From a virus: a stretch of 48,461 bases of DNA. The notes under the pieces were generated by a model. The model was not told where the DNA came from, ran no database searches, and worked only from the letters and a program-made list of their open reading frames with translations. Location of the stretch: the IMG/VR virus record IMGVR_UViG_3300029922_000102, positions 1-48,461 of that record. One strand, written 5' to 3'. Below, one piece after another: positions 17,016-20,629 of this stretch. The position numbers and the translations under genes are program-made. The stretch's first letter is position 1; each line of letters begins with the position of its first letter.

Positions 17016-18866
17016 ATGCCTGACGTAACACTACTTGCCCAATACCACCGCACCCGAGATTTACACAAACAAGCGGGTAAGCGCCTAGGTCCAATCCCAA
17101 AAGCACGGCGCCCAAAGTACCCGTGGCCAATCGAACACGCTTACGAACAAGCCTTATTGAAAATCGTAAACAAGATGGAAGCGGCCGCCCGTCCAATCAT
17201 TGAGAAATACTTACCAATCATTTTCAAAGAAGCGGAAAGAGTTAAGGGCGATCAAACCGACGAATGGACAGACGACCTAACCGCAATGGAAGACCTTTTG
17301 AGGACGGCTTACGGACAATTGTTAGACGAAGACGAATTGGAAGACCTTGTTGAAAACTACGCCAGCCTAACGAGTAAATTTAATTCAACGGACTTGGCGC
17401 GGGTGTTATCGGTTATCGGCGGAACGAACCTAGCCGAAGAGCTTTGGCACGAACCTTACGTTCGAAGCTTTATTAAACAAAACGTCAGCCTTATAAAATC
17501 AATCGGCACACAAAACCACGACCAAATAGTTGACATAATCCACCGAGGCATTCGAGGCGGGAAGACCCATGGCACCGTGGCCGAAGAAATATTTGGCCGC
17601 TTTGACGTGTCGAAATCAAAAGCCCGATTAATTGCGCGGGACCAAATAGCAAAACTTAATAGCGACCTTTCCAAGCAACGTTTGAGCGACGCCGGAATCA
17701 AGAAATACTATTGGGACACCGCACACGACGAACGGGTGCGTGGAAGGCCAGATGGTCTTTACCCTAAAGCACGTCCGAGCCATTGGGCACAACAAGGCAA
17801 GATTTACGATTTAGACGGTCCTGGGGCACCGAATCTTGGGCACCCTGGCCAGCCAATCCAATGTTTCATCGGGTCAACGAATATCGAATCGTTTGGAAAC
17901 GCAAAAAAACTTTTCAGGCGTTGGTATAGCGGTAATTTGACCACAATCATTACGGCAAAGGGTAAAACGCTCACGGTGACACCTAACCATCCAGTATTGA
18001 CCGTTCGTGGATGGATTAGCGCAAAGGCTTTGAAGGTGGGGGATAAACTTATTGAAGCACCCAAGCAAGACGGCGGGCGTAGTGGCGTGAACAAAAACAA
18101 CCCCATGCCCGCATTTGAGAAGATATTTAATCTTTGCGAGATTGTGTTTGTCGCGGTGGGGCGCATGGGATTTACACGTCAGTTCCACGGCGACGGAACC
18201 AACCATAATGTCGATGTTATAACGCCCAATAGACTTTTGTTGAATGGGATTAAAACCAAGCGTTTTCAATTTCTCAAACGTTTCCTTTTCCCCAGCGCCG
18301 ATAAAGAAAGCGGATTTCATTTTTTGGCGGCTTTGGCTTGCGGTTTCCAAGACGGATTCTTTTCGCTTCTTGCCTTTTGTGGCGGCGTGGCAAGCGTTGG
18401 TAAGAGTCTTTGTTTCGGCCTTGGTCATGCGACCCATTCGTATGTAATTGGCTTCGGAACCGCCCCGAAAATCGGTAACACCAAGGCGCTTCAAGTTTCC
18501 ATAAATGGCCGTGCGGTCAACTCTAAAAAGCTTGGACAACGAAAGAACACTAGCCCCAGACAAGTAAAGACTTTTAACTTTGCTGGGAAGGTTTATTCGA
18601 TTAACGGATGGCTTATGTCGACCTTGCTTGGTATCGACGCCAAGGGGTCTAAGTTTTTTGCTCAAATTATCGGGACTGACGCCGAGGCGTTGCCCGATTT
18701 CTGTAAGAGTCAATCCGATTTTGTGCAAACGGATAGCCTCGTTCAAAAGCGCACCGGTAAGTTTAAAGTTCATGTTTATAACCTCGAAAACGAAAATGGT
18801 TGGTATTGCGCCAACGGGCTTATATTACACAATTGCCGTTGCGTTATGGTGCCTAAATTTGATTAA
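17016..18866 (+). CDS. MuF-type minor head protein interrupted by an intein
   Basis: The precursor has 616 residues. Residues 1-282 and 607-616 form the host protein (292 residues after splicing). The MuF-type part includes SKARLIARDQIAKLNSDLSK (~209-228), a YYWDTAHDERVRG segment and, after splicing, the joined C-terminus GQPIQ-CRCVMVP, the cysteine motif that normally ends these proteins. MuF proteins sit on the portal inside the head and help head assembly and DNA ejection. The intein replaces the join exactly at the first Cys of CRC, a conserved site, so MuF function depends on splicing. Confidence 0.9.
   Translation: MPDVTLLAQYHRTRDLHKQAGKRLGPIPKARRPKYPWPIEHAYEQALLKIVNKMEAAARPIIEKYLPIIFKEAERVKGDQTDEWTDDLTAMEDLLRTAYGQLLDEDELEDLVENYASLTSKFNSTDLARVLSVIGGTNLAEELWHEPYVRSFIKQNVSLIKSIGTQNHDQIVDIIHRGIRGGKTHGTVAEEIFGRFDVSKSKARLIARDQIAKLNSDLSKQRLSDAGIKKYYWDTAHDERVRGRPDGLYPKARPSHWAQQGKIYDLDGPGAPNLGHPGQPIQCFIGSTNIESFGNAKKLFRRWYSGNLTTIITAKGKTLTVTPNHPVLTVRGWISAKALKVGDKLIEAPKQDGGRSGVNKNNPMPAFEKIFNLCEIVFVAVGRMGFTRQFHGDGTNHNVDVITPNRLLLNGIKTKRFQFLKRFLFPSADKESGFHFLAALACGFQDGFFSLLAFCGGVASVGKSLCFGLGHATHSYVIGFGTAPKIGNTKALQVSINGRAVNSKKLGQRKNTSPRQVKTFNFAGKVYSINGWLMSTLLGIDAKGSKFFAQIIGTDAEALPDFCKSQSDFVQTDSLVQKRTGKFKVHVYNLENENGWYCANGLILHNCRCVMVPKFD
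17862..18833 (+). mobile_element. Intein (324 residues) in the MuF gene
   Basis: The intein begins with Cys (CFIGSTNI, block A), has block B with TPNHPVLTVRGW (catalytic Thr-x-x-His), block F (KVHVYNLENENGWYCANG) and ends LILHN followed by Cys+1, which meets all chemical requirements for splicing. The roughly 240 residues between blocks B and F do not contain a LAGLIDADG or HNH endonuclease in this frame. That space is occupied by an endonuclease gene on the opposite strand. Confidence 0.9.
17874..18773 (-). CDS. Antisense homing endonuclease nested in the intein
   Basis: The 299-residue product has a helix-turn-helix at ~19-48 (LTLTEIGQRLGVSPDNLSKK), a second at ~65-100 (LSLSKLFRVDRTAIYGNLKR), a basic linker and a Vsr/DUF559-like nuclease core at ~164-232 with FEKLKTLGFNPIQQ, then GRYNIDIMVGSVAVELTCK carrying Asp188, Glu197 and Lys201. 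The ATG at 18773 has GAGG eight bases upstream on the minus strand. The stop lies 12 bases inside the 5' end of the intein. The ORF is codon-aligned antisense to the intein frame. The C-terminal ~65 residues overlap the block A/B coding region. A homing function is inferred from fold and place. Confidence 0.8.
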   Translation of the reverse strand: MNFKLTGALLNEAIRLHKIGLTLTEIGQRLGVSPDNLSKKLRPLGVDTKQGRHKPSVNRINLPSKVKSLYLSGASVLSLSKLFRVDRTAIYGNLKRLGVTDFRGGSEANYIRMGRMTKAETKTLTNACHAATKGKKRKESVLETASQSRQKMKSAFFIGAGEKETFEKLKTLGFNPIQQKSIGRYNIDIMVGSVAVELTCKSHAPHRDKHNLAKIKYLLKCGHGVVFVHATTPAVLLGCFNKFIPHLQSLCANPSTNGQYWMVRCHRERFTLCRNDCGQITAIPTPEKFFCVSKRFDIR

Positions 18867-18928
18867 ATGGTGCCCGTTTTCGACCGTTTTGACGTAGCCG
18901 CTTAACCAAAGATTTATTGCCTACCCTA

Positions 18929-18992: not shown

Positions 18993-19223
18993 ATGGAAAA
19001 GTCAGTTATTGAAATGGTTAAGTCGGTTGGTTTTGGAATGCACATTGTTTACCGCTTGTTTGCCAATGGTAAATTAACTTCACAAACAATTGATATTCGG
19101 GAATCGGTATTTCGGCCCGAAGTTGAAGTTAACCGCTCTTGGAAGGGTACGCCTTCAGCTTTCGTGAAGTTCCATACAAAATACAATTTTGAATTGTGCT
19201 ACCAAGACAAGGTGACGGCTTAA
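18993..19223 (+). CDS. Hypothetical protein in the methyltransferase operon
   Basis: The 76-residue product (MEKSVIEMVKSVGFGMHIVY...) looks like a small alpha/beta protein: an N-terminal helix, then strands. No cysteine pairs or membrane spans. The leader after P3 is about 30 bases with GAGGG before the ATG. The stop overlaps the methyltransferase start (TAATG). Possibly an accessory or regulator of the methyltransferase. Confidence 0.5.
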   Translation: MEKSVIEMVKSVGFGMHIVYRLFANGKLTSQTIDIRESVFRPEVEVNRSWKGTPSAFVKFHTKYNFELCYQDKVTA

Positions 19224-20629
19224 TGCGTTACGGCTCGGTGTGTTCTGGAATTGAAGCTTGCACGGTGGCATGGCATGGCATGGCATGGGAACCACAATGG
19301 TTTTCTGAAATAGAAAAGTTTCCAAATGCCGTTCTACAACACCATTACCCAAACGTTTTAAATTTAGGCGATATGACAAAGTTACACGAAAGGAAAGAAT
19401 TTAATGAAAGACCAATTGACCTTCTTGTCGGAGGCACCCCTTGCCAATCCTTTAGCGTCGCAGGACTTAGAAAAGGATTGGACGACCCGCGTGGTAACTT
19501 GGCCCTCCACTTTCTTAAATTGGTTGAGACAAAACAGCCCCGTTGGGTGGTTTGGGAAAATGTTCCTGGGGTCTTATCAAGCCGGACAACTGACGACCGA
19601 GGAATCGAACACTACGACTTTGACAGTTTTACCGCAGGGCTTGGGCAACTCGGGTACGGTGTGGCGTGGCGAATCCTTGACGCTCAATACTTTGGAGTTC
19701 CCCAGCGCCGCCGTCGTGTGTTCGTTGTCGGATATCTTGGAGACTGGCGACCTGCCACGGCGGTACTTTTTGAGCGCCAAAGCCTGTCAGGGGATAATCC
19801 GCCGAGCCGAAAAACGAGGCAAGAGGTTACCGGTTCAACTGGAAACGGCACTTCAAACAGTTGCGAACAATCCAATAACGGAAAAAGCGATTCGGGAAAG
19901 AAATCTAAAAGAACAACTTACCAGCCCGAAGTTAGCCCTGCCATAAAAGCAAGGGACGCAAAAGGTGTTAGTTCTGACGGTGACGGTGACGGTGACGGTG
20001 CGCCTTTAATAGTTTTAGACGACCAAGGGGGAAGTCAAATGACAGTAGACCAAAGTGGAAGCGTTGGCACAATGCGCGAGAACCAGCACCAGCACCAGCA
20101 CCAGCCAATAGTATTTCAACAACGGTCTGCGGACGGCCACGCACGGGTATCTGCGGACGGCCACGCACGGGTATCTGCGGACGGCAATGTTCCAACTCTT
20201 GACCGAATGGCCGGAGGCCAAAGGGAGCCTTGTGTAGTTCTTCCAGCACTTGTTTCAAACGGTGATGCACATAGTGGTTTTAGAGACGAAAAAGGATTAG
20301 TGGCTTTTAAAGCAGGACAGGGCGCTGGCGCTGGCTCTTTAGGTTTATCGGAAAATGTCACGCCTACGCTGGGTAGCGGTAATGTTTTGAATGGAATCCC
20401 GAGCTTACAATCCGGAATGATGGTACGCCGTCTTACGCCACGCGAATGTGAGCGCCTTCAAGGTTTTCCCGATGATTACACTTTAATACCGTATGGGAAG
20501 AAACCAGCAAGTGACGGACCACGCTATAAGGCGTTGGGAAATAGCATGGCGGTGCCGGTAATGAAGTGGATTGGGAAACGGATTGAGTTAGTGGAAGAGA
20601 TTTTAAAGTCGAAGGCAGTTAAATTTTAA
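19223..20629 (+). CDS. DNA (cytosine-5) methyltransferase
   Basis: The 468-residue product has all key motifs: VCSGIEA (I), TPCQSFS with catalytic Cys74 (IV), WENVPG at 111-116 (VI), QRRRR at 161-165 (VIII), RLTPRECERLQGFPDDY (IX, ~403-419) and GNSMAVPV (X, ~439-446). It transfers methyl from SAM to cytosine C5, probably protecting phage DNA. No cognate restriction enzyme is adjacent. The variable recognition region (180-400) is packed with tandem DNA repeats, and codons 15-21 lie in a (TGGCA)4 tract. I start at the ATG at 19223, in the preceding stop. Confidence 0.9.
   Translation: MRYGSVCSGIEACTVAWHGMAWEPQWFSEIEKFPNAVLQHHYPNVLNLGDMTKLHERKEFNERPIDLLVGGTPCQSFSVAGLRKGLDDPRGNLALHFLKLVETKQPRWVVWENVPGVLSSRTTDDRGIEHYDFDSFTAGLGQLGYGVAWRILDAQYFGVPQRRRRVFVVGYLGDWRPATAVLFERQSLSGDNPPSRKTRQEVTGSTGNGTSNSCEQSNNGKSDSGKKSKRTTYQPEVSPAIKARDAKGVSSDGDGDGDGAPLIVLDDQGGSQMTVDQSGSVGTMRENQHQHQHQPIVFQQRSADGHARVSADGHARVSADGNVPTLDRMAGGQREPCVVLPALVSNGDAHSGFRDEKGLVAFKAGQGAGAGSLGLSENVTPTLGSGNVLNGIPSLQSGMMVRRLTPRECERLQGFPDDYTLIPYGKKPASDGPRYKALGNSMAVPVMKWIGKRIELVEEILKSKAVKF
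19266..19285 (+). repeat. (TGGCA)4 pentanucleotide tract
   Basis: Four perfect copies of TGGCA followed by an imperfect one (TGGGA) lie in codons 15-21 of the methyltransferase. The unit length is not a multiple of three, so gain or loss of one unit frameshifts the gene just after motif I. The present number is in frame. Confidence 0.9.
19975..20190 (+). repeat. In-frame tandem repeats in the methyltransferase recognition region
   Basis: (TGACGG)4 at 19975-19998, (ACCAGC)4 at 20082-20105, and a 24-base unit starting TCTGCGGACGGCC at 20126-20149 and 20150-20173 with a half copy after. All unit sizes are multiples of three. They encode Asp-Gly, His-Gln and ADGHARVS repeats. Confidence 0.9.

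Follow-up and report, generated by a model that had tools for sequence, protein, structure and literature searches.

A putative homing endonuclease gene nested antisense within an intein of a phage MuF gene

The window, by which we mean the whole 48,461-nucleotide stretch of viral DNA analysed here (IMG/VR record IMGVR_UViG_3300029922_000102), carries a MuF-type head morphogenesis gene that is interrupted by an intein, and the opposite strand of this intein holds a second gene. We consider it very likely that the second gene encodes a homing endonuclease of the EDxHD/Vsr-like type with two helix-turn-helix (HTH) units, nested antisense in a working intein and driving the mobility of that intein; cleavage, splicing and expression from the minus strand are inferred. 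Computation shows that both reading frames are real, with opposite constraints that can be mapped, that the minus-strand protein has a nuclease fold, and that the element has an exact insertion site, an empty allele and a sporadic distribution. The coordinates of all features are collected in Table 1.

The intein, its empty allele and the antisense frame

The host gene matches Phage_Mu_F in Pfam (E 1.1e-8) and head proteins in PHROG. Within it, the window's host protein scores above the Pfam cut-off for Intein_splicing (E 2e-9) and shows the features of a class 1 intein, namely an N-terminal Cys, a block B of the form TxxH, a terminal His-Asn, a +1 Cys and a Hint domain. Both ends of the intein are modelled by AlphaFold2 at a pLDDT of about 86–98, and their Foldseek matches are solved inteins. 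Most of residues 124–245, in the centre of the plus-strand product, fall below pLDDT 50, and a domain search found no in-frame nuclease domain in the intein polypeptide. By its sequence the intein should excise from the MuF precursor and restore ...PIQ-CRC..., although splicing activity itself is inferred.

An IMG/VR contig, L001, has flanks 96–99.6% identical to the window and the same MuF gene without the intein. At the insertion point it reads ...HPGQPIQ directly followed by CRCVMVP, and the boundaries are therefore fixed independently of the motif reading. Upstream of the insertion, the window and L001 differ at distances of 9 and 24 nt and show no further mismatch out to 273 nt; on the downstream side, L001 has a single copy of ATGGTGCC where the window has two, with 21 additional bases between them. 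These mismatches and the duplicated ATGGTGCC probably represent a co-converted flank and its repair, but the sites are few. As separate observations on this pair, the MuF ORF of L001 (positions 2–400) carries an N-terminal segment (ESITVYRGMNN...SASPNEKTASQF) unrelated to that of the window, so the N-terminal module varies among near-identical phages; judged by eye, the segment is possibly an ADP-ribosyltransferase-like domain. The downstream DNA methyltransferase ORF of the window (19196–20629) also has a low-complexity repeated insert (DGHARVSADGHARVSADG), unlike L001 at the corresponding place.

Table 1. Features of the host gene, the intein and the antisense gene in the window
Feature	Position	Strand	Basis or remark
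MuF-type head morphogenesis gene (host)	17016..18866	+	single continuous 616-codon ORF
N-extein	17016-17861	+	part of MuF host ORF
C-extein	18834-18866	+	part of MuF host ORF
Intein, 324 aa	17862..18833	+	Intein_splicing E 2e-9; empty allele L001; AlphaFold2 and Foldseek
Intein C1	17862-17864	+	read in sequence
Block B, TPNH	17979-17990	+	read in sequence
Block F, HVYNLE	18771-18788	+	read in sequence
Intein terminal His-Asn	18828-18833	+	followed by +1 Cys
Antisense gene, 299 aa, putative homing endonuclease	17874..18773	-	antisense relatives, free-standing homologue, selection, fold
Shine-Dalgarno GAGG of antisense gene	18782..18785	-	8 nt upstream of ATG; reverse complement of block F (AAC) CTC
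First HTH unit, residues 7-44	18642..18755	-	model helices 7-18, 23-30, 34-44; HTH_23 E 0.0012; 2lvs profile match
Second HTH unit, residues 65-96	18486..18581	-	model helices 65-71, 76-83, 87-96; HTH families in many relatives
Nuclease domain, about residues 155-252	18018..18311	-	3r3p and 3hrl profile/fold matches; column conservation
E162	18288-18290	-	nuclease domain residue
D188	18210-18212	-	nuclease domain residue
E197	18183-18185	-	nuclease domain residue
Plus-frame motif FHGD, codon-for-codon opposite nuclease motif VAVE	18183..18194	+	conservation in relatives
Probable co-conversion/repair footprint, two ATGGTGCC copies 21 nt apart	18846..18874	+	alignment with L001

The antisense ORF comprises 299 codons and, with its stop, covers 900 of the 972 bases of the intein (93%). 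It is the longest minus-strand ORF of the window, the runner-up reaching 202 aa, and the remaining long ORFs in the ORF list run on the plus strand. Its codons lie exactly opposite the plus codons, in antiparallel register, so that minus-strand stops correspond to TTA, CTA and TCA on the plus strand. None of the 44 opposing Leu and Ser codons (25 Leu and 19 Ser) is one of these three, for which we calculate a probability of about 5e-7 given the codon usage of the window.

The start signals of the antisense gene are read off the back of block F. On the opposite strand, the His codon CAT of block F reads as the ATG of this gene, and the Asn-Leu codons AAC CTC of HVYNL read as its Shine-Dalgarno sequence, (G)GAGGTT. 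The block F Leu is encoded by CTC in 61 of 87 motif-matched loci, as compared with 532 of 2491 extein Leu codons; the former figure is rough, as some of the 87 motif matches are off target. Based on these sequences, we infer that block F probably has a dual use, in protein splicing on the plus strand and in translation initiation on the minus strand. A minus-strand promoter was sought in the window and not found.

Much of this arrangement had been claimed in an initial annotation made from the sequence alone, and most of it held. The placement of the intein in the C-terminal cysteine motif of MuF proved exact to the base by motifs, Pfam and L001, and the 299-codon minus-strand ORF with its GAGG site, as well as the absence of an in-frame endonuclease from the intein centre, were likewise upheld. 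The statement that all other genes are on the plus strand agrees with the ORF list, which was not checked gene by gene. Independent expression of the nuclease, also claimed, is supported only at the level of translation signals, by the conserved Shine-Dalgarno sequence and start.

Conservation, selection and fold of the antisense gene

A tblastn search of phage records with the minus-strand protein matched 106 records, and barring a few weak partial matches (E near 1) and an Acinetobacter case, these matches lie inside head genes on the opposite strand. A single-protein search of IMG/VR gave zero matches. The full-diversity alignment of the family was too divergent to serve as a query; sub-alignments worked, and with them the set was enlarged by two IMG/VR scans and one genome scan. 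Classification of the resulting 133 loci or windows placed 128 genes antisense between the N- and C-terminal splicing regions, with four contigs cut through the intein and one gene free-standing. The window is represented twice among the 128; without the duplicate there are 127 complete inteins, 92 of which are non-redundant at 80%. The antisense register is identical in 127/127, the matched part of the minus frame is free of stops in every locus of this first survey, and the host ORF is continuous in the window and in 125 of the 127 relatives.

Opposite the antisense gene, TTA, CTA and TCA account for 0 of 4054 Leu/Ser codons (0/2135 Leu, 0/1919 Ser); in the exteins they account for 859 of 5451 (554/3166 Leu, 305/2285 Ser). 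These counts are partly conditioned, as the stretches were found as open ORFs. In a second search seeded with the intein, 78 of 78 complete inteins carry the antisense nuclease, four of them as matches in several pieces; because this search was ranked by full-length similarity and took the best 80 of at least 548 loci, inteins without the gene may have been missed. The four loci in pieces (L174, L182, L185 and L208) suggest frameshifts or decay, and might be late stages of a homing cycle.

The strongest single evidence that the minus ORF is a real gene is a free-standing homologue. In Acinetobacter phage IME285, an intact MuF gene without an intein is followed closely by a convergently oriented gene for a 297-aa relative. 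The three frames opposite this homologue hold 12, 10 and 24 stops, and nothing is therefore encoded behind it; the 12 in-register stops mean that the freed gene uses the Leu/Ser codons that embedded copies avoid. A search by tblastn with the IME285 gene recovered intein antisense ORFs, with E-values of 9e-34 and 1e-27. It is fully covered in 3 of 82 related Acinetobacter phage records and is absent from others, such as AB_NC1. Comparison of IME285 with AB_NC1 gives a MuF identity of 98% that falls to about 52% over the final 180 nt, beside the nuclease gene, which would fit a diverged, resistant target carried along with that gene. As an observation in its own right, the free-standing nuclease convergent with MuF in three Acinetobacter phages (L009, positions 455–1345, and L134) and missing from their relatives is an arrangement that looks like the intronless homing of a stand-alone endonuclease.

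Since codon faces codon, a single substitution has a defined effect, synonymous or replacement, in either frame, and we scored these effects over 15 disjoint pairs. In the exteins the constraint is on the plus strand (omega+ 0.13, omega- 0.94), and in the intein centre it is on the minus strand (omega- 0.16, omega+ 0.39), where substitutions fall mostly at plus codon position 1, which is minus position 3. The splicing ends of the intein are constrained on both strands. In the last 20 intein codons, upstream of the antisense start, plus-synonymous changes are tolerated and plus-replacement changes are scarce (SN 0.062, NS 0.007), and a finer selection map shows the constrained strand switching at the expected borders. 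The omegas are approximate, with transition weighting fixed at 3 and multiple hits uncorrected, but the contrast is large and consistent across pairs. Thus the minus ORF is a real gene and selection in the intein centre acts on the minus frame, its expression being inferred. Both strands may still be constrained at one place in the centre, where F108 and H109 of the intein lie opposite E197 and V196 of the nuclease: FHGD is nearly invariant in 47 inteins and the opposing VAVE is invariant or nearly so in 56 nucleases, and it is conceivable that FHGD matters to the intein too.

AlphaFold2 models the minus-strand protein at a mean pLDDT of 91.7; as the plus-frame centre stays below 50, a confidently folded domain in this region comes from the minus strand alone. 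Searched alone against Pfam, NCBIfam and the PDB, the window's protein gave just weak HTH matches and a sub-threshold MTES_1575 match, and it was a 56-member profile that resolved its identity, matching I-Bth0305I (3r3p, E 6.6e-6), the DUF559-like 3hrl (1.1e-5) and the two-HTH protein 2lvs (7.9e-8). Among the 56 members, MTES_1575 is found in 35, HTH_7 in 31 and DUF559 in 14. Foldseek placed 3r3p and 3hrl among its top four matches, with target-normalised TM scores of 0.67 and 0.74 and a probability of 1.0; its E-values are modest, 0.012–0.035 (3r3p 0.012). Profile and predicted fold thus show that the minus-strand protein has a PD-(D/E)xK-superfamily catalytic core of the I-Bth0305I/Vsr/DUF559 type; that it cleaves DNA is inferred.

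The initial annotation had read two HTH segments and a Vsr/DUF559-like core in this protein, and profile, AlphaFold2 and Foldseek bear this out. Its proposed catalytic trio of Asp188, Glu197 and Lys201 held only in part. Asp188 and Glu197 show no variation among 56 relatives, whereas Lys201 is not conserved (1/56); the remaining acidic position that is nearly invariant is occupied by Glu162 (54/56). In 39/56 relatives, column 204 holds a His. The window's protein has none there but has H203 and H206 nearby, and in its clade the His of most relatives is displaced or absent; this clade is also without the W-H pair found in most relatives. That annotation had further held that its reading would fall if the protein lacked a nuclease-fold match and the minus frame were interrupted in homologous inteins; the outcome was the opposite on both counts. 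The check for purifying selection on antisense codons that it proposed also came out in favour of the minus frame in the intein centre.

Distribution, proposed homing and rival readings

The element is spread across several kinds of host protein. Of 86 N-exteins, 56 match Phage_Mu_F, nine Phage_min_cap2, seven VG15 and one dCMP deaminase, and insertion is nearly always directly before a Cys, mostly of a CRC-type motif. The deaminase case (Virus Rctr197k; L018, positions 616–1968) has the antisense arrangement in a dCMP/cytidine deaminase gene with a zinc Cys motif, annotated as a head morphogenesis protein; here the element has entered an unrelated host gene. Presence is patchy in Guernseyvirinae, where the N-extein DNA occurs in about 171 records and the intein in 70. 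Phage K1ind2 has an empty intein site, which has been reported already together with the intein of the Snoke/LSPA1 capsid morphogenesis gene (PMC6776784). Another phage, Escherichia phage vB-Eco-KMB36 (OR525703), is annotated with a 'minor head protein with inserted intein'; its extein match (H193) ends at query base 658 of 728, perhaps indicating a different insertion site or another element.

We propose that the plus strand encodes a Hint-type splicing domain whose middle is a tolerated, largely unfolded linker, and that the minus strand encodes a separate, site-specific nuclease with two HTH DNA-binding units and an EDxHD/Vsr/DUF559-like catalytic domain, translated from a Shine-Dalgarno sequence and start codon on the reverse of block F. 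On co-infection, the nuclease would meet an intein-free MuF allele and cut the conserved DNA of its cysteine motif, and repair from the intein-bearing copy would insert intein and nuclease together, along with some co-converted flank. Cleavage, the choice of target, splicing and the mode of minus-strand transcription are all inferred, with no biochemistry behind them.

The most basic objection is that the minus frame is a shadow ORF, open by chance or codon bias, with conservation that mirrors the plus frame and no product. In-register codons do project similarity on one strand partly onto the other, and the missing promoter would fit. The stand-alone homologue, however, has no plus frame behind it, and together with the selection map it refutes this reading; omega- is 0.16 in the intein centre as against 0.94 in the exteins, the confident nuclease fold is on the minus strand and the disorder on the plus, and a frame open by chance has a probability of about 5e-7 in the window alone. 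We regard the shadow ORF as all but excluded. A real antisense nuclease could instead serve a role other than homing, for example against the DNA of competitors or the host, or as a DNA-binding regulator of the head operon. Its HTH units could bind regulatory DNA, and phage endonucleases can also act in competition between phages. Against such a role stand the residence in an intein at a conserved site, the exact empty allele and patchy distribution, the free-standing copy adjoining the same target gene with its diverged target end, and the kinship to I-Bth0305I. A non-homing role in place of homing is thus very improbable, although the two are not mutually exclusive.

It is also possible, but unlikely, that the gene is a former homing endonuclease that is inactive or unexpressed in the window's phage, the element being fixed and decaying. 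Once fixed, homing endonucleases often degenerate; the window's clade lacks the W-H pair of most relatives; and the four loci with matches in pieces suggest frameshifts elsewhere. The window's ORF, however, is intact, with E162, D188, E197 and its start signals, and an empty allele in so close a relative implies recent movement. Other readings were rejected outright: a group I intron, as the host frame is open throughout and bounded by protein-splicing residues (no Rfam search lies behind this rejection); a split or fractured gene, as the host gene is one continuous ORF with protein-splicing boundaries; and minus-strand conservation as a mere mirror of the plus frame, by codon avoidance, selection tests and open-frame probability.

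The nested homing endonuclease therefore remains our preferred reading, and a bolder version of it is likely as well. In this version, the window's intein belongs to a widespread and hitherto unrecognised group of mobile inteins that have their homing endonuclease as a separate gene on the antisense strand, block F doubling as the ribosome-binding site and start of that gene and the two products evolving on the two strands of shared codons; the group may stem from the capture of a free-standing, MuF-targeting endonuclease like that of IME285.

Significance and relation to known systems

These findings indicate that an intein need not carry an endonuclease in its own polypeptide, since splicing and endonuclease are here physically unlinked though they share the same DNA. 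Intein surveys that read only the host frame would label such inteins as endonuclease-less, and mobility would therefore be under-counted. As a natural example of antiparallel overlapping genes the element is also unusually clean, since its codons face each other in register and selection can be followed along it from one strand to the other; and with one free-standing and many embedded relatives available, the origin of overlapping genes becomes testable. Finally, a family of nucleases is exposed whose common target in phages is the MuF cysteine motif.

In the PMC literature searched, mostly below full text, we came across no account of an intein with an antisense endonuclease. A 2025 preprint on actinobacteriophage inteins with non-canonical architecture (10.1101/2025.01.02.630785) has a title that suggests possible overlap with the Gordonia members of our set, and such overlap is not excluded. 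The intein of Escherichia phage Snoke and Salmonella phage LSPA1 (PMC6776784) belongs to the antisense group (L011, L016); the intein alone was reported and the antisense gene went unmentioned.

Canonical large inteins (PI-PfuI, TliVMA) share the splicing fold and motifs and the placement of the endonuclease between blocks B and F, and in-frame nested endonuclease domains at a conserved intein site have been described (PMC6801210). Whereas the endonuclease of PI-PfuI and TliVMA is in frame, that of the window is a separate gene on the opposite strand, outside the intein polypeptide, and not of the LAGLIDADG family. Fractured genes, in which an intein is reportedly split and a free-standing Vsr/EDxHD-like endonuclease gene sits between its two parts (Dassa et al., 2009), likewise tie a Vsr-like family to phage inteins, but the window's intein is continuous and, rather than being parted by the nuclease gene, is overlapped by it in antisense. 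I-Bth0305I, an EDxHD enzyme of a phage group I intron, is similar in its catalytic domain (3r3p), its extended DNA-binding region and its phage homing context (PMC3943268); it resides in an RNA intron, not antisense in an intein, and at least from the window's clade it differs in the architecture of the HTH array and in the catalytic His. The nearest precedent that we found is an HNH endonuclease in a phage methylase (PMC11855218), which is also hidden in overlap with the host frame of an inserted element, but lies on the same strand in another frame, belongs to the HNH family and is without intein splicing domains, whereas the nuclease gene described here runs antisense through the intein itself.
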